Assembly (NCBI RefSeq): GCF_009742725.1
Contig: NZ_WPHG01000003.1
Location: 496,001 to 560,000, forward strand
Direction: 5' to 3'
Length of the DNA stretch: 64,000 nt
From: Nitratireductor arenosus
GTDB taxonomy: Bacteria; Pseudomonadota; Alphaproteobacteria; Rhizobiales; Rhizobiaceae
Of this stretch, positions 2,375 to 34,618 are shown one piece after another. Under the pieces are notes generated by a model. That model saw nothing but the letters and a program-made list of their open reading frames with translations. It was not told the origin of the DNA and searched no databases. How positions within the stretch are numbered: the stretch's first letter is position 1; each line of letters opens with the position of its first letter. Both the position numbers and the translations under genes were made by a program.

Positions 2375-4213
2375 GTGCCGGGCCGGCAGTTCACGCGGCA
2401 GGTGGCGACGATCGTGTCGATCGACGCGGCCGGATTTTCGCGCCTCATGGGCATGGATGACGAGGCTGCCGTTGCCACCTTCGAGGGCCATCGCGACATC
2501 ATCCGCGACTGCTGCGCGAGCCATGGCGGCCGCATGTTCGGACCCGCCGGCGACAGCATGATGGCCGAATTCGGCGCACCCGTCGACGCACTGCTTGCCG
2601 CGATCGAGTTCCAAGCTCTAATCACCCGAGCCAACCTGGATGTTCCCGAGGCTGGGCGCATGGCTTTCCGCGCCGGCATCAATACCGGCCAGGTGATTGT
2701 CCGCGACGAAAGCCTCTATGGCGACGACGTCAACATCGCCGCGCGGCTGCAGGAGATCGCGCCCGAGGGCGGCGTGGTGGTTTCGGAGACCAGCTGGCAT
2801 CATCTGCGCGGCGTGGCCGCGGCCCGCTTCACCGATCTGGGCGTGCAGGACTTTCACAATATCCTGCTTCCGGTGCGGGCCTTCCGCGTCGAGCGGCCCG
2901 GGTCCGGTGAGGCCGGCGAGACCGACCGGGGCTTGGAGACCCTTCCGGCAGCGGCGTTCTCTTTTTTTCGCGCCGACGGCAAGGGCGGTCCGCCGGCGGT
3001 TGCGGTGCTGCCGTTCCGCATCGAAGGCGCCGCCCCGGAGATCGGCTACATGGCCGAGGGCATGGCCGAGGATATCGTCGTCGGCCTGTCGAACACGCGC
3101 TGGCTGCCGGTCATTTCGATGAACTCCAGCCTGCAATTCAGGGACGAGGCGGTATCGTCCGAGGCGGCCGGCCGGGCGCTTGGCGCCCGTTACGTCGTGA
3201 CCGGAAGGATCGCGCGCGCCGGCGACATGCTGCGTGTGCGCGTCGCGCTCGACGACGCCTCGACCAATCGCACCATCTGGTCACGCGGGTATGACCGCGA
3301 GCTTGCCGACATGTTCGCCATGCAGGCCGAGATCGGCAACGAGATCGTCGCCATGCTGGAAAAGGAGGTCGACCGCGTCGAACAGGCGCGCACTTTCCGT
3401 ATTCCCTGGGAAGGGCTGGAGAGTTGGCAGCTCGTGCGCCGCGGACGATGGCACATGCAGCGCCGCACGCGCGAGGATACCGCGCTGGCGCTCGACTTCT
3501 TCGAGAAGGCGCATGAGCGCGATCAGAACGCCAGCACTGTGCTGAACGAACTCGCCTGGTGGTATTTCTGGCGCTCCTGGCTGAATTTCGGCGATGGCGG
3601 CGAGTATCGCGAGGATCTGGCCCGGGTCGAGGATTATTCGCGCAAGGCGCTCTACATGGACAGCCAGGACGCGCGCCCGCACGCCCATCTGGGCATCGTC
3701 GACATCATGCTGGCACGGCCGGCCTCCGCGCTCGAGCATCTGTCGGAGGCGCTGCGCATCAATCCCAGCTTCGCCTTCGCGCGTTCGGCCATGGGCAGCG
3801 CGCATCTGCTTCTGGGCGAACAGAAGCGCGCGATCCCGCTTTTTCTCGACGCCGATCGGTTGAGCCCGTTCGATCTTTACCGCTTTCACAATCTCGGCGA
3901 GCTTGCCGCCGCCTATTGCTTCGACGAGGATTGGCGCGCGGCTGCGACCACGGCCGAACGCTCCCTGTCGCTGGCGCCGTCCTACTGGTATGCGCGCTTC
4001 CTGAAGATCGTGGCGCTGGGCGCGCTGGGCGAACGGTCCGCCGCGACGGCGGAAAACGCGATCCTGTTTGCCCGTCATCCGCAATTTTCGACCACGCGCG
4101 TGGAATGGATTCCCTATAGCCGGCCCGAACTCAACCGGTCCCTGATCGGGGCTTACGAGCGCGCGGTCGGATCGGCCAATACAGCCGCGCGGCGGGAGAG
4201 GGTAGAGCGGTAG
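2375..4213 (+). CDS. Class III adenylate/guanylate cyclase with TolB-like and TPR regions
   Basis: A 612-residue protein. Residues about 8-170 are a class III nucleotide cyclase domain with the two metal-binding aspartates visible at D17 (in VSIDAAGFS) and D60 (in AGDSMMAEF) and a GDDVNIAARLQ segment. Residues about 205-330 resemble the TolB-N/FlgO-like module found in many alphaproteobacterial cyclases (AVLPF, then VTGRIARAGDMLRVRVALDD). The remainder is helical TPR repeats. This cyclase-TolB-TPR architecture is common in Rhizobiales, where it is thought to make cAMP from ATP in the cytoplasm. There is no transmembrane segment. The start is a GTG at 2375 behind a G-rich stretch. A Crp-family regulator with a cyclic-nucleotide-type pocket lies about 5 kb downstream. 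Confidence 0.9.
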   Translation: MPGRQFTRQVATIVSIDAAGFSRLMGMDDEAAVATFEGHRDIIRDCCASHGGRMFGPAGDSMMAEFGAPVDALLAAIEFQALITRANLDVPEAGRMAFRAGINTGQVIVRDESLYGDDVNIAARLQEIAPEGGVVVSETSWHHLRGVAAARFTDLGVQDFHNILLPVRAFRVERPGSGEAGETDRGLETLPAAAFSFFRADGKGGPPAVAVLPFRIEGAAPEIGYMAEGMAEDIVVGLSNTRWLPVISMNSSLQFRDEAVSSEAAGRALGARYVVTGRIARAGDMLRVRVALDDASTNRTIWSRGYDRELADMFAMQAEIGNEIVAMLEKEVDRVEQARTFRIPWEGLESWQLVRRGRWHMQRRTREDTALALDFFEKAHERDQNASTVLNELAWWYFWRSWLNFGDGGEYREDLARVEDYSRKALYMDSQDARPHAHLGIVDIMLARPASALEHLSEALRINPSFAFARSAMGSAHLLLGEQKRAIPLFLDADRLSPFDLYRFHNLGELAAAYCFDEDWRAAATTAERSLSLAPSYWYARFLKIVALGALGERSAATAENAILFARHPQFSTTRVEWIPYSRPELNRSLIGAYERAVGSANTAARRERVER

Positions 4214-4268: not shown

Positions 4269-4500
4269 CTAGAGCGGTTCCTCTTTAACTGGAAGCGGTT
4301 TGATGGAAAATCCGTCCAAGCCGGGAGCGTCCATAGTGTTGATATCGCCCGTCAAACCGCAATCACCCGACCTTGGTCTTTCCCGTCCTGGACGGCGTCG
4401 CGCCCGGCTCACGGTGCCTGCACCGCATCGCCACGCGCTCCTGGCCGGACCGCGAAATCCCGGCGGTCAAACGATTCCAGTTAACGAGGAACGGCTCTAG
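4269..4500. repeat. MITE-like element, copy A, with 34-35 bp terminal inverted repeats
   Basis: The left end (4269-4303) begins CTAGAGCGGTTCCTC and the right end (4467-4500), read on the other strand, begins CTAGAGCCGTTCCTCGTTAA. The two ends are inverted copies with a few mismatches. The 160-base interior has no convincing coding sequence. The interior block at about 4325-4386 (core CAAACCGCAATC) recurs in a second element at 34424-34618 in the same relation to its CTAGAGC end, so this is a dispersed repeat. The right end stops 25 bases before the ATG of the P450-peroxidase gene. Confidence 0.8.
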
Positions 4501-4525: not shown

Positions 4526-7500
4526 ATGTTTCGGACAAAATATCATGACGGCGTGAGGGCGGCGCGGGCCGCACAGCGCCCGGTTTCCGAGATGCCCCCC
4601 TTCGATCCGGAGCGCTTGCGCAGCTCCGGCCTGATTGCGCGGGCGGTTTCGGCATTTCTGGAGAATCCGCGACCGGCCACCCGTTTTTTCCGCCGCTACT
4701 GGCCGATCCTTTCGCTCGGCAAGACCGTCATCGTGTTCAAGAACGCGGACGTGCGCGAGGTCCTGGAACGCCAGGAGGATTTCGAAACGCCGTTCGGCCC
4801 CGAGATGGAGGAAATGGCGGGCGGCGCCAATTTTGTCCTCGGCATGCAGGACGGCGGCGAGTACAGGCGCATCAAGTCGGCGCTTTTGTCGGCCTTTCCG
4901 CCGTCGGAGATCGAGACGGTTGTGCGCCCGATCGCGGCCCGCCATAGCGCCGGGATCATGCGCGGCGCCGTGCCCGGCTTCGATGCCGTCGACCGGATGC
5001 TGAAAACCGTGCCGGTGCGTATCTGCCGCGACTATTTCGGCATGGTGATCGAGGACGAGCTCGCTTTCGCCGACTGGGCGATCGCGTTGTCGTCGCTGTT
5101 CTTCGCCGACCCGACCGGCAACGCCAAGACCCGCGAGCTCGCCGTCGTGGCATCCGAACGCATGCTGGCGACCATCGACCGCTCGCTGGCACGCGTGCGG
5201 GCCGGCTTCGGCAAGAGCGACACGCCGCTCGCCCGGCTCGTCGCCATCCGCGCCGCCGATCCCGCAGCGCTCGGCGAAGACGAGATCCGCTCGGTGATGA
5301 TGGGCATGATCGCCGGGTTTACGCCGACCAATCTGCTTGCGGCCGGCAACGCGCTCGATGTCGTCTTGACGATGCCGGAGGCGCGCGCGGCGGTCGAGGC
5401 AGCGCTTGCCGCCGGCGATGACGCCGCGCTGACCCGCGCCATCGACGAGGCGATGCGTTTCAAGCCGATCAATCCCGGTCCGTTTCGCTACGTGCCGCGC
5501 GACACCGTACTGGCCAAGGGCACCGGGCGGCAAAAGACGCTCAAGGCGGGCACCACGGTCTGGCCCTGGACCTTGTCGGCGATGTTCGACGCCGACGACG
5601 TCAAGCAGCCGGAACGGTTCGATCCCGATCGGCCGCAGCGCAATTCGCTGGTGTTCGGGCACGGCATCCATTGGTGCGTCGGTGCGGCTCTGGCGAGGGT
5701 CCAGATCGGCGAGGCTTTCCGCGCGCTGTTTTCCAAACCGGGCCTGCGACGGGCAGCGGGCGCGCCGGGCCGGCTTGCCCGTCGCGGCGCCTTTCCCGAA
5801 AGCCTGTGCGTGGACTTCGACGTGTCTGCCGAAGTACGCGCGGTCGGGCACTCATTCGTCACCATCGCCGTACCGGTCGCCGGCACCGTCGCCCCGGCGC
5901 GGCTGCGCGCCATGGTCGAGGCGCTCGGCAATCCCGCCGATAGCGCAATTCGCGCAGCGTTTGACGCCACCGGGCTGGTGCATTTCGCCAGCCTGTCGGT
6001 GATCGGCAAGGCCGATCAGGCCACCGAGCGCCCGGACGACCCCAAACATCTGGTGTTCGAATTTTCCGCCGACGGAGACCAGAAAACCGCGATCGCGGCC
6101 GTTGCCGATGGAGCTGGTCCATGGCTGCGGCCGGTCTTCGAGGCGGCCGGCGCGCTCGACAAAGAAGGGGATTTCGCCGCCCTGCTGCACCGACATGCCC
6201 TGGCGGTCTCGCCAGCGCCCGGCGATGTCGCCGGGCTGTGCTTCACCGGTACGCCCGGCCATTCGGTGCGCCGCATCCTGGCAGAGGAAGAGCTCTGCGC
6301 GGAGGCGAACGAGATCGTCTGCGCCCAGCCCGCGGACGCCGGCGACAGCGCGCTCGACCGTCTCGACACCGTGCGGCGGGCATTGGCCGACAAGGGCGGT
6401 TACGACTGGGCCTTCCAGGCTGCGCCGAGCGGCCTCGACGCGCCGGCCGGCGATGTCTGGGACATGGTGCGCAAGACCGTGTCGGCGCCGCGCCTGCTCG
6501 CCGGTATTGCCGCCGTGTTCGGCATTCTTTCCGCCTGTATCCTGTTTTTTGCTTTCGAGGCCCCGTTCGACGGCGTTTTGCGGGGTTTCTTTTCCGTCCT
6601 AGCCGCGTTGCTTCTCGGCCTCCTGGCGCTGTGCGCGCTGGTCGGTCTGCCGGCCGCGATTGTCTATTGGCGTTTCCGCCGCCTGGAGCGGGAACCGCAG
6701 ATCGAGGCCGGGCCGCTGCCGCCCGACCGGTTCGAGGCGATAACGGCACGCGAGGACCATGGCGTGCAGAACCATCTCGCCGCGATCTCGGTGATGAAAC
6801 CCGGCCGCCTGCGCCGGCTCGCGCTGCGACTCGCCTTCTTCACCATCCTCCAGTTCGTGCGGCATGTGTTCGCGCCGGGACGGCTCGCCGATATCGGCTC
6901 GATCCACTACGCGCGCTGGGTGCTACTTCCGGGCACCGACAAGCTGCTGTTCTTCAGCAATTACGGCGGCAGCTGGGGCAGCTATCTGGAGGATTTCATC
7001 ACCAAGGCGGCGAAGGGGCTGACGGGGGTGTGGAGCAATACGGCCGGATTTCCAAAGGCAAGAAATCTGTTCTTCGACGGCGCGACCGACGGCGACCGCT
7101 TCAAACTGTGGGCGCGGGCCCAGCAGATCCCAACCCTGTTCTGGTATTCGGCCTATCCGGCGCTCAATACCGGCGCGATCCGCCGCAACGCCGCGATAAG
7201 ACGGGGTCTGGCGACGGCCCGCACCGACAGCGAGGCCGCGGCCTGGCTGGCCCTTTTCGGCTCCAAGCCGCGGACCGCCGGCGGGTTGGAGACCGAGGAT
7301 ATCCAGTCGATCCTGTTCGGCGGCATGGGGCGGCTTGCCGAAGCCCGTATGGTGGCGCTGCGCATGCCCGAGCATATGCCCCGCGCGGCGCGGCGCGATT
7401 GGCTCGACCATCTGGTGCACAGCACCGCCTTCGGCGGTATCGAGCCGACCGAGGCGGCGATGGTGAGCGCTTTCGCCCCGGGCGGCCTGGTCAAGCTCGG

Positions 7501-8713
7501 CCTGTCCGGGCTCGACGGCGGGCTGCCGGGCTCTTTCCCGACGACCTTTCGGCATGGCATGGCCGACCCGCATCAAAACCGGGTGCTGGGCGATGTCGGC
7601 GACAATGCGCCGGAGCACTGGGAATGGGGCAATGCCGACGAGCCCGTCGACGCGGTGCTGGTGCTTTATGCCGACACGCGGCAACGGTTGGAGAAAAATG
7701 TCGACGCGCTGGCGAACCTATCGGCGGCGGCCGGCATGGAGACGGTCGCCAGCCTGCCGCTCACGATCGAGCGCGACGTCAGGGGCAAGCCGATCGAGCA
7801 TTTCGGCTTCCGCGACGGCATCTCCCAGCCGGTGATCGCCGGCACGCCGCGCGCGCTGCGCGCTGCTGCCGCCCAGCACCGGATAGCGGCGGGCGAATTC
7901 GTTCTCGGCTATCCCGACGAGCTCGGCCGGCTGCCGCCATCGCCGATGCTTGGCGCGGGGCTGGACGCACGCGGCCGCCTGTCGGGTCGCGACCGCGCGG
8001 CCAGCGCCGGCGAGGATCCGCAATGGCGCGATTTCGGCCGCAACGGTTCGTTTCTCGTCATCCGCCAATTGGCCCAGAATGTCGGCGCGTTCGAGAAATT
8101 CTGCCGCGATACAGCGCGCGCGCTCGGCCGCACCGAGATCGCCGGCCGGCCGGCGCCAGAATGGGTCGGCGCGAAGATGCTCGGCCGCTGGAAGGACGGC
8201 ACCTCGCTGATCGGCCATCCGGAATGGCGCGCCGGGCAGGAGCCAGATAACGATTTTCTGTTTGCCAGCGACGACGCGCAGGGACGCCAGTGCCCGTTCG
8301 GAGCGCATATACGCCGTTCCAACCCGCGCGATTCGCTGGGCGCGAAGCCGGAAACGCAAATCCAGATTTCCAAGCGTCACCGCATCCTGCGGATCGGCCG
8401 TACTTACGCCAGACAGGCCAAAGGCGGTAAAAAAGCCGAAAAGGGCATGGTGTTCATGTGCCTCAACGCCGATATCGAGCGCCAGTTCGCCTTCGTCCAG
8501 CAGACCTGGGTAAACAATCGCGGTTTCGAGAGCCTGCGCGGGGAAGCCGATCCGCTCGTCGGCAACGTGGCTGGCGAAGGCTGTTTCACGGTCGCCGGGC
8601 CGGAAGGCCCGCTGCGGCTGAAAGGGTTGAGCGCATTCGTCACGCTACGCGGCGGCGGTTATTTCTTCGTGCCGAGCAGGCGGGCGCTGCGCTATCTGCG
8701 TTCACAGTCATAG
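4526..8713 (+). CDS. Cytochrome P450 - transmembrane - Dyp-type peroxidase fusion protein
   Basis: One uninterrupted 1395-residue frame with two heme-enzyme domains. Residues about 30-440 are a P450: ExxR at E308-R311 and the heme-ligand loop FGHGIHWCVG with Cys384. Residues about 450-650 are a poorly defined alpha/beta region; two membrane helices follow (about 657-677 and 688-715). Residues about 740-960 form a second conserved region (SIHYARWVLL, then LLFFSNYGGSWGSYL). The C-terminal part is a DyP-type peroxidase with the GFRDG motif (distal Asp1097), CPFGAH with proximal His1261, and HRILR supplying the likely distal arginine. The P450 I-helix reads AGFTPTN (263-269) and lacks the usual acid-alcohol pair of monooxygenases. 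I chose the ATG at 4526; an ATG at 4592 is also possible, and upstream in-frame sequence belongs to the repeat. The reaction is unknown; peroxide- or lipid-peroxide-driven chemistry is an inference. Confidence 0.92.
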   Translation: MFRTKYHDGVRAARAAQRPVSEMPPFDPERLRSSGLIARAVSAFLENPRPATRFFRRYWPILSLGKTVIVFKNADVREVLERQEDFETPFGPEMEEMAGGANFVLGMQDGGEYRRIKSALLSAFPPSEIETVVRPIAARHSAGIMRGAVPGFDAVDRMLKTVPVRICRDYFGMVIEDELAFADWAIALSSLFFADPTGNAKTRELAVVASERMLATIDRSLARVRAGFGKSDTPLARLVAIRAADPAALGEDEIRSVMMGMIAGFTPTNLLAAGNALDVVLTMPEARAAVEAALAAGDDAALTRAIDEAMRFKPINPGPFRYVPRDTVLAKGTGRQKTLKAGTTVWPWTLSAMFDADDVKQPERFDPDRPQRNSLVFGHGIHWCVGAALARVQIGEAFRALFSKPGLRRAAGAPGRLARRGAFPESLCVDFDVSAEVRAVGHSFVTIAVPVAGTVAPARLRAMVEALGNPADSAIRAAFDATGLVHFASLSVIGKADQATERPDDPKHLVFEFSADGDQKTAIAAVADGAGPWLRPVFEAAGALDKEGDFAALLHRHALAVSPAPGDVAGLCFTGTPGHSVRRILAEEELCAEANEIVCAQPADAGDSALDRLDTVRRALADKGGYDWAFQAAPSGLDAPAGDVWDMVRKTVSAPRLLAGIAAVFGILSACILFFAFEAPFDGVLRGFFSVLAALLLGLLALCALVGLPAAIVYWRFRRLEREPQIEAGPLPPDRFEAITAREDHGVQNHLAAISVMKPGRLRRLALRLAFFTILQFVRHVFAPGRLADIGSIHYARWVLLPGTDKLLFFSNYGGSWGSYLEDFITKAAKGLTGVWSNTAGFPKARNLFFDGATDGDRFKLWARAQQIPTLFWYSAYPALNTGAIRRNAAIRRGLATARTDSEAAAWLALFGSKPRTAGGLETEDIQSILFGGMGRLAEARMVALRMPEHMPRAARRDWLDHLVHSTAFGGIEPTEAAMVSAFAPGGLVKLGLSGLDGGLPGSFPTTFRHGMADPHQNRVLGDVGDNAPEHWEWGNADEPVDAVLVLYADTRQRLEKNVDALANLSAAAGMETVASLPLTIERDVRGKPIEHFGFRDGISQPVIAGTPRALRAAAAQHRIAAGEFVLGYPDELGRLPPSPMLGAGLDARGRLSGRDRAASAGEDPQWRDFGRNGSFLVIRQLAQNVGAFEKFCRDTARALGRTEIAGRPAPEWVGAKMLGRWKDGTSLIGHPEWRAGQEPDNDFLFASDDAQGRQCPFGAHIRRSNPRDSLGAKPETQIQISKRHRILRIGRTYARQAKGGKKAEKGMVFMCLNADIERQFAFVQQTWVNNRGFESLRGEADPLVGNVAGEGCFTVAGPEGPLRLKGLSAFVTLRGGGYFFVPSRRALRYLRSQS

Positions 8714-8784: not shown

Positions 8785-9468
8785 TCAGTCGTCGGGCGCC
8801 GAGCCCAGCTTCTCCAGTACGGCGCGGTTCAGAACCTTGAGCCCGCCGCGCCGAATTTCAATCACGCCGAGGCGGCGCCAGTCGGTCAGCGTCTTGTTGA
8901 TCGATTCCCGTGTCGCGCCGAGGAATTCGGCCAGTTCCGATTGCGAGATGCCGATCCAGCCGGTCTCGTCCTGGATCAGCTCACACAGCAACAAAAGCCG
9001 TTTGGCCAGCCGCGCCTCGATCTTGAGCAGGGCCTGGTCGCCAAGCTCCGCGCTCACCCAGCGCAGCCTGGCGCACAAAACCCCGATCATAGCGCTGGCG
9101 AGCCGGGGATGCGCCTCGATGCGGTCGAACAATTGCCGCCGCGACACCGATACCAAGGTGGCTTCCGTCAGGCAGGTCGCCGTGGCCGTCCGCAAGCCGC
9201 CGTCGAGCGCGCCGATCTCGCCGATCAGGCTCTTTTCGGTTTCGATATTGGCGACAAGCTTGCGCCCGCCTTCTGAATAGATCGCGATCTCGATCGTGCC
9301 GTCGATGACGCCGTAGACCCGGTCGGCCTCGTCGTCCTGCATGAACAGGTGATGACCGGGCTTCACATGCTCTTGCGGGCAGCCGTCGAACAGAAGCCGG
9401 AACAGCGCCTCCTCCAGGCGGACCTGTTGCTGCTCGCCCGCCGACCTGTCCATCAACTCACTTGCCAT
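8785..9468 (-). CDS. Crp/Fnr family transcriptional regulator
   Basis: A 227-residue regulator. The N-terminal cyclic-nucleotide-binding beta-roll contains GEIGALDGGLRTATAT, which resembles the phosphate-binding cassette of true cAMP receptors (Gly-Glu then Arg-Thr/Ser). There is no cysteine cluster as in Fnr. The C-terminal winged helix has SQSELAEFLGATRESINKTL as its helix-turn-helix. The ATG at 9468 was preferred over a longer frame because the added residues have no family similarity. It converges on the P450-peroxidase gene and is divergent from the PaaG-like gene, so it could regulate either. Cyclic nucleotide sensing is plausible given the cyclase gene at 2375 but is inferred. Confidence 0.9.
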   Translation of the reverse strand: MASELMDRSAGEQQQVRLEEALFRLLFDGCPQEHVKPGHHLFMQDDEADRVYGVIDGTIEIAIYSEGGRKLVANIETEKSLIGEIGALDGGLRTATATCLTEATLVSVSRRQLFDRIEAHPRLASAMIGVLCARLRWVSAELGDQALLKIEARLAKRLLLLCELIQDETGWIGISQSELAEFLGATRESINKTLTDWRRLGVIEIRRGGLKVLNRAVLEKLGSAPDD

Positions 9469-9626
9469 GCCCGTACTCAACCGGTATCCGCCGTCCAGCC
9501 GGATCGTTTCCCGTTGCAACGCCTCGCCTTCCGCCACGGGCGGTCCAGGCCGAAATTGATCGCCGCCGCCGGGCATGTAAACTGGCGCGGCCCGTACCAG
9601 CCGGCGGACCCAGGAGAAACAACCCG

Positions 9627-34389: not shown

Positions 34390-34423
34390 ATTCTATCCTC
34401 CGGATGTGGGAAAAAGTCGCGCG

Positions 34424-34618
34424 AAAAACCAAGGTCGGGCGATTGCGGTTTGATCGGCGACGTCAAAAGCACGTAGTTCTACCGGCTTGTACGGCTTTTC
34501 TGCCCCGGCCCATGTTGAAGCCCTTGCCCGATAGTCACATCGCGCCGCGGGCTTCTCCTTGCCGGAACGAAAATTCCATTCCATCAAATCGCTTCCATTT
34601 AAAGATGAACGGCTCTAG
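34424..34618. repeat. MITE-like element, copy B (one end recognisable)
   Basis: Read on the minus strand from 34618 this begins CTAGAGCCGTTCATC, then GGAAGCGATTTGATGGAA, matching the left end of copy A at 4269. The interior block with CAAACCGCAATC and CGACCTTGGT (34426-34470 region) also matches copy A in the same orientation relative to that end. The opposite inverted end is not visible and the middle is longer and diverged. The CTAG end lies over the stop codon of the ABC permease at 34615-34617. Confidence 0.75.

Follow-up and report, generated by a model that had tools for sequence, protein, structure and literature searches.

Why should a bacterium carry two heme enzymes of different families on one membrane-linked polypeptide? 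This question is raised by a gene of Nitratireductor arenosus (assembly GCF_009742725.1), located in a 64,000-nt stretch of contig NZ_WPHG01000003.1 (positions 496,001-560,000) that we call the window; coordinates given below refer to it unless another locus is named. The gene (4526..8713, forward strand) encodes a fusion protein of 1395 amino acids in which a cytochrome P450 is joined to a DyP-type peroxidase. An earlier note, made from the sequence alone, had described this chain, likened it to the fungal Ppo/linoleate diol synthase enzymes (with other families and another order) and considered its chemistry to be undescribed. Our analysis supports that interpretation in its direction. The fusion is conserved with its motifs, it also occurs in split forms and in an independent reversed one, its P450 is replaced by a catalase-like protein in other bacteria, and genes for a cyclase and a Crp-type regulator flank it. 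What such a module may do, possibly in lipid peroxide metabolism, is discussed on this basis.

Two heme enzymes in one open frame

No internal stop interrupts the 1395 codons, and none separates the P450 from the DyP. The start was placed at the ATG at 4526, from which relatives align (an alternative in-frame TTG lies at 4373). Five segments follow one another along the chain: P450, a first ferredoxin-like domain (FD1), a membrane hairpin, a second ferredoxin-like domain (FD2) and the DyP peroxidase. The single frame, the two membrane helices and the heme motifs listed in the earlier note (Cys384, ExxR at residues 308-311, GFRDG with Asp1097, and His1261) were all recovered at those residues, and the two ferredoxin-like domains between the P450 and the DyP are additions to it. 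Ligand and catalytic motifs are intact in both halves. Since eight relatives (37-87% identity) keep the full frame open, the fusion is not a product of chance; together with the fused state of 77 of the 80 best relatives (see below), they also rule out a frameshift artefact, and no stop was found between the domains.

The P450 domain (residues ~40-425, 4643..5800, on the forward strand like all features of the fusion) clearly exceeded the Pfam cut-off for PF00067 (40.4 versus 22.8 bits). An AlphaFold2 model of this part with the first small domain had a mean predicted local distance difference test score (pLDDT) of 89.1 (29 sequences), and the P450 model matched bacterial P450s in Foldseek, with 3buj as the best match and EryK and Vdh also found (E=7.2e-16 for CalO2). 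The features expected of a P450 are all present, namely the P450 fold, the ExxR motif (EAMR, residues 308-311, 5447..5458) and the cysteine-ligand loop FxxGxxxCxG (FGHGIHWCVG, residues 377-386 with Cys384, 5654..5683), the latter also supported by relatives. The I-helix motif GFTPT (residues 264-268, 5315..5329) has a Pro and no acid at the acid-alcohol site according to the alignments.

The DyP-type domain (residues ~921-1395, 7286..8710) was matched by TIGR01413 in NCBIfam (E=2e-28; 99.7 bits, slightly below the cut-off of 100.5) and by PF20628 in Pfam (19.7, slightly below the cut-off of 20). When compared with PDB sequences, the C-terminal third matched a putative peroxidase, the Deinococcus DyP, with an E-value of 7e-43. 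The remainder of the chain was modelled with a pLDDT of 80.4 and a predicted template modelling score of 0.52 (32 sequences), and Foldseek placed 8re2 and 8re3 (Deinococcus) first for the DyP part, followed by AnaPX. The structure prediction proposed in the earlier note returned P450s for one half and, with a strong fold match, DyPs for the other. The catalytic Asp1097 lies in GFRDG (residues 1094-1098, 7805..7819) and the heme ligand His1261 (8306..8308) in PFGAHIRR (residues 1257-1264). Both are invariant in all 61 module DyPs, as are three Arg columns; the Asp of GxxDG, the axial His and, through these three columns jointly, the distal Arg of DyP enzymes are accordingly in place.

Between the two halves, FD1 spans residues ~436-600 (5831..6325), with the P450/FD1 junction at residue ~440, and FD2 spans residues ~741-920 (6746..7285) as delimited by alignment. 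Their ferredoxin-like assignment was read off the secondary structure of the models and is a predicted one. The two membrane helices (residues ~655-721, 6488..6688) correspond to hydrophobic stretches at ~652-685 and 681-717 and to helices in the model; the hairpin would probably place both heme halves at one face of the membrane. Among 15 members scanned, FD2-type domains had no convincing Pfam family (best E=0.011, an oligogalacturonate lyase family), and no convincing solved relative was found by sequence in PDB (best E=0.0034). As judged by these searches, the FD domains are a family without a Pfam entry. Such domains occur fused, as small separate proteins and in tandem next to DyP genes (L120, L122, L103, L104 and others).

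Conservation of the fusion in relatives

The earlier note had named homologues that are always separate proteins as a finding that would refute it, and this is not what the genomes show. Among 61 near genomes, that of the window included, ten have both enzymes in one frame and two have them as adjacent separate genes (G051 and G059). Seventeen of the other 49 had no match, and in the rest the match was confined to the P450 part or, in the case of G019, to a short stretch of the DyP. In G051 (locus L011) a stop at 2743-2745 of that locus closes the P450 gene, and the start of the second gene, at 2791, is equivalent to residue ~440, where FD1 begins; in G059 the gene order is DyP then P450. G035 has the fusion twice: one copy is 53% identical, and the second (contig C2, 703934-708361) looks full-length, with a single frame that matches in two pieces, at 37% and 58% identity.

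Named genomes contained 366 relatives in our scan, and the 80 best of them were compared further. A single frame encodes all four domains in 77 of these 80, a share that is biased toward the fused form because these are the closest relatives, and that includes L028, counted as fused despite a P450 part broken near the contig start. The non-fused cases are L090 and L093, with a P450 gene directly upstream, and L096, in which no P450 was found. Nitratireductor, Mesorhizobium, Aquamicrobium, Chelativorans, Rhizobium and other genera are represented. Database entries annotate these relatives as cytochrome P450, Dyp-type peroxidase domain-containing protein or hypothetical protein, so the chain itself is already in public records.

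An exchangeable second heme partner

When the FD2 profile was searched against 398 proteobacterial genomes, 27 matches were obtained, including that of the window, and the surroundings of the other 26 were examined. Of these 26 genomes, 22 have a second heme protein next to the FD-DyP or fused to it, a P450 in 15 and a catalase-like protein in seven. No second heme neighbour was found in G442 (two loci, one of them near a contig end), G312, G686 and G390. The class of G434 (369 genomes, five matches, four of them new) provided one P450 fusion, two catalase-like forms and one form without a partner. In the class of the window (289 genomes, seven matches at 1e-40, own included), a P450 was found in G067, G208, G324 and G246, a degenerate P450-like part in G151 and a catalase-like protein at a second locus of G208, with G312 lacking a partner. 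Over all 51 loci, related ones included, the partner is a P450 in 29, a P450-like part in one (L121) and a catalase-like protein in 11; 41 loci have a second heme-type partner, ten have neither and none has both. An FD match is present in 49 of the 51; it is lacking at L121, and L124 has no more than a relative of the FD type. Five partner-less genomes were also searched as a whole. On another contig of G872 there is a module-type P450, broken into pieces, and G686 encodes a catalase-like protein away from the locus; G312 and G442 likewise have distant P450s, of the module type or another, and in G390 neither a P450 nor a catalase-like protein was found.

The domains are fused in several ways: P450-FD-DyP, DyP-P450 (L122), DyP-catalase-like (L163) and FD-DyP-GDSL (L179). 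The reversed chain of L122 has 1015 amino acids, and its P450 part was confirmed. In L163 (7655-10387 of that locus) the DyP and catalase-like domains share one frame of 911 residues. L179 (356-5152) has FD, DyP and a weak GDSL-lipase match in one frame of 1599 residues. In L121 (5688-9623), also a reversed DyP-P450 frame, the P450 part has a degenerate heme loop; it is P450-like only through 24% identity to L122, it had no match to a solved structure, and it was counted apart.

Among the catalase-like partners, one member matched catalases with an E-value of 8.7e-6, and no Pfam family was found in the members scanned. A profile of nine of the 11 members had two matches among solved sequences, the coral allene oxide synthase-lipoxygenase 1u5u as the best (E=1.1e-4) and catalase 4cab (1.5e-4). 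The distal His of catalase is replaced by Asn in five of the nine aligned members, and an Arg and a Tyr consistent with the proximal motif are invariant in all nine. P450s and catalase relatives are known as alternative converters of hydroperoxides in plants and corals.

Mapping the partner type, P450 or catalase, onto a DyP tree of 61 rows takes a minimum of three changes, so that the partners would have been swapped more than once if this tree is right; it is a quick tree, like that of the P450s, with support from the Shimodaira-Hasegawa-like approximate likelihood ratio test (SH-aLRT) only and with some long-branched rows. Fifteen genomes were chosen for having a P450 or P450-like part beside or fused to the module, and in five of them (G434, G671, G167, and G583 and G571, which are incomplete genomes of one genus) the module P450 is the sole P450 at E≤0.001. 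Both fusion orders, adjacency as separate genes and the exchange of the P450 for a catalase-like protein strongly support, at the level of sequence comparison, a functional coupling of the two hemes. The earlier note had gone from two hemes in one chain to the channelling of a peroxide or radical intermediate between them; it is the coupling that stands, and channelling would be a further step.

A P450 clade mostly lacking the I-helix acid

One branch of the P450 tree separates the 39 aligned module P450s from 15 other P450s (SH-aLRT 100). The latter remained from 25 candidate loci after setting aside seven without a match to the module profile and three that were short, and this filter makes the comparison set small and biased toward module-like P450s. 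ExxR is kept in 38 of the 39 module P450s, with DxxR in L093. The acid of the I-helix pair serves as a proton relay and is usual in O2-activating P450s. At this position module P450s have Pro in 33 of 39 cases, Asp in four and another residue in two, whereas 14 of the 15 comparison P450s have an acid. The adjacent Thr is retained in 35 of the 39 in one alignment register. It should be noted that the register is certain to within one residue: pairwise and profile alignments place Thr-Pro at the acid-Thr positions, and the acid is absent either way. Thus, the acid-alcohol pair of O2-activating P450 monooxygenases was found in neither register, which suggests that the P450 half may not activate O2 in the usual manner. 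Two known types were considered and rejected. A self-sufficient P450 of the CYP102/CYP116 type does not fit, since no fused reductase was matched in Pfam or NCBIfam up to E=0.1, and a CYP152 peroxygenase does not fit, since GFTPT stands where the Arg-Pro motif would be expected.

Genes around the module

Genes related to lipids lie beside several loci. In L169 a patatin gene and a FadL-type porin gene stand in a row with the DyP and P450 genes, as they do by similarity in L170 of the same genus; patatin was also found in L123, an LCAT-like gene in L120, a Tle1-like phospholipase gene beside L176, and a DUF676 esterase together with a GMC oxidoreductase in L162. The GDSL-lipase match of L179 (27.0 bits, below the cut-off of 32.9) is in frame with the FD-DyP, and oleate hydratase, thioesterase and 3-hydroxyacyl-CoA dehydrogenase are annotated beside L103. 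Other neighbours scanned had no lipid link, including transporters, a TonB receptor, a histidine kinase, glycosyltransferases, a DNA methylase and a response regulator. Because the scanned neighbours were chosen, these are occurrences and not rates. A lipoxygenase search of 15 genomes gave no match, but the control was equally silent and the search is uninformative. An_peroxidase was over its cut-off in three of the 15 genomes (G434, G502 and G003), so a conventional dioxygenase is possible in those three.

In the window the fusion gene is preceded by a gene for an adenylate/guanylate cyclase with TPR repeats (2375..4213, forward strand), a relative of which is present in 73 of the 80 best loci, and followed by a gene for a Crp/Fnr-type regulator with a cNMP-binding domain (8785..9576, reverse strand), with a relative in 74 of the 80; both were assigned by Pfam, and some of the misses are contig ends. 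The trio of cyclase, fusion and Crp genes was also found on a Pararhizobium plasmid. A cyclase gene adjoins the reversed frame of L121 (Pfam Guanylate_cyc) and, by similarity, the separate-gene forms L164 and L172 and the catalase-type form L177. In L099, L100 and L160 Pfam showed only TPR repeats in the upstream gene. No P450 redox-partner family was found among ten genes scanned near the window copy, and the enoyl-CoA hydratase gene adjoining it recurs in only six of the 80 loci. A scan for promoters and terminators around the fusion gene was uninformative (no promoter-like and six terminator-like sites, versus 0.7 and 5.2 in shuffled sequences).

The interval between the cyclase and fusion genes contains an element of 232 bp (4269-4500) whose 32-nt terminal inverted repeats are 88% complementary. 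With 58 matching segments in its own genome, it resembles a dispersed repeat similar to miniature inverted-repeat transposable elements, and related segments lie within 34423-34618 of the window. L098, L102 and L119 are forms without a P450. A gene of the endonuclease/exonuclease/phosphatase family adjoins L098 and L119, and L098 and L102, both on Rhizobium plasmids, are near DNA/RNA non-specific endonuclease genes, L098 also being near a gene for a CHAT-domain protein.

Possible functions

Our preferred explanation, which we put forward tentatively and at slightly less than even chances, is a membrane-anchored two-heme enzyme that would process lipid (hydro)peroxides by a logic like that of diol synthases, realized with other protein families. 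The shared substrate would be an unsaturated fatty acid or a membrane lipid, which the DyP and FD domains might bind at the membrane. The DyP half would generate a peroxide species such as a lipid hydroperoxide or radical, or activate one; the P450 half, needing no NAD(P)H redox partner, would rearrange or reduce the hydroperoxide; and through the cyclase and Crp genes the product might either feed cyclic-nucleotide signalling or be governed by it. Either half could act first, and the purpose could be the making of a signal or the removal of toxic lipid peroxides. We favour this fungal-type reading because lipid genes lie beside several non-fused loci and the I-helix acid is lost. A wider proposal appears rather doubtful to us, namely an undescribed bacterial oxylipin pathway in which DyP and FD domains would replace a lipoxygenase or cyclooxygenase, an acid-less P450 or a catalase relative resembling allene oxide synthase would convert the hydroperoxide, phospholipases would feed the pathway, and the cyclase and Crp genes would signal. 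Such a pathway, again with some doubt, would span Proteobacteria and also occur in at least one assembly classed as acidobacterial (L093), with one membrane protein as its core in the window, and by analogy it might, no more probably, be the bacterial counterpart of eicosanoid and jasmonate chemistry.

Several points weigh against a role in lipid peroxide chemistry. We know of no DyP that makes fatty-acid hydroperoxides, some acid-less P450s are still monooxygenases, and ten of the 51 loci lack a partner nearby. The lipid link comes from non-fused relatives with hand-picked neighbours; no lipase or lipid neighbour was found among the genes scanned at fused loci, including the window copy, and patatin, the one gene type counted for a base rate, numbers 1-12 per genome in ten genomes. 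The same set of genes would also serve the detoxification or repair of lipid peroxides, with phospholipases releasing oxidised acyl chains, the DyP and P450 or catalase-like protein reducing or degrading them, and stress sensed via cyclic nucleotides. The GST-type gene in L171 and the Crp-type regulator adjoining the window copy agree with this alternative. We nevertheless consider it unlikely, since no thiol peroxidase genes turned up among the neighbours scanned (the scan was not systematic) and, as an argument only, two specialised hemes per chain seem costly for simple removal.

The two remaining alternatives dispense with lipid peroxides, and each seems to us quite improbable. If the P450 were a hydroxylase driven by H2O2 (a peroxygenase), with the DyP limiting or metering H2O2 or oxidising a second substrate such as a phenol, the missing I-helix acid and the lack of a redox partner in the ten scanned neighbours would be accounted for, and CYP152 enzymes offer a precedent, since Arg-Pro has taken over the site of their acid-alcohol pair (PMC5818669). 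However, the Arg-Pro motif itself is absent here, lipid genes recur in unrelated loci, and a swap with a catalase-like protein that has lost the distal His in five of nine members misfits the metering of H2O2. On the other hand, the P450 might be a conventional monooxygenase served by a shared cell ferredoxin, the fusion merely co-localising two steps of secondary metabolism. Its nearest solved relatives in fold and sequence are ordinary bacterial P450s (EryK, Vdh and CalO2), and the Thr kept in 35 of 39 members in one register agrees with such a role, whereas the absence of the acid in 35 of 39 module P450s and of any redox partner among the ten genes near the window copy argues against it.

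The natural roles of DyP enzymes are mostly unclear. If the preferred explanation is true, these enzymes would gain a concrete physiological role, the same two-step peroxide logic would have been invented again, from a DyP, in bacteria, and possible lipid signals would be added to rhizobia and other Proteobacteria. The analysis has further brought out a domain family that Pfam lacks, and a P450 clade open to direct tests at the bench.

Comparison with known systems

To our knowledge, fungi are the sole known source of fusions of a peroxidase-type dioxygenase with a P450, and those of a lipoxygenase with a catalase come chiefly from corals. In the fungal proteins the dioxygenase precedes the P450 in the chain, whereas the P450 comes first here. 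We found no description of a P450-DyP protein in the open-access literature (subscription journals were mostly outside the search), nor in the accessible parts of PMC5818669, PMC13049297 and PMC11719350.

The likeness to the fungal linoleate diol synthase, Ppo and DOX-AOS (dioxygenase-allene oxide synthase) enzymes, drawn in the earlier note, proved to be a good analogy. According to PMC13049297, these also have two hemes per chain in peroxidase-type and P450-type domains. They differ in that their dioxygenase belongs to the peroxidase-cyclooxygenase superfamily, where a DyP is found here, and in that they have neither a membrane hairpin nor FD domains, which are extra in our protein. Membership in the fungal family itself was rejected, as PF03098 (An_peroxidase) was matched neither in the fusion protein nor in its genome (G000). 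The degenerate P450-like part of L121 seems to parallel the fungal 10R-DOX-1, whose fused partner lacks the heme-thiolate ligand (PMC13049297).

The solved D-type DyPs (ancestral 7anv, Deinococcus 8re2 and AnaPX 5c2i) share the fold and the Asp, His and Arg of the site, but their chains of 442-488 amino acids leave no room for a P450, a hairpin or FD domains. The CYP152 enzymes (P450 BS-beta, SP-alpha and OleT) resemble the P450 of the window in lacking the I-helix acid. In them, Arg-Pro replaces the acid-alcohol pair, a motif absent here, and the accessible part of PMC5818669 mentions no peroxidase fusion; the module P450s would thus have lost the acid similarly, but by a different change. 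Finally, the coral allene oxide synthase-lipoxygenase likewise fuses a hydroperoxide-converting heme protein to a fatty-acid oxygenase (PMC5617202). It differs in having a lipoxygenase in place of the DyP, and the partner in the window is a P450 and not a catalase-like protein.

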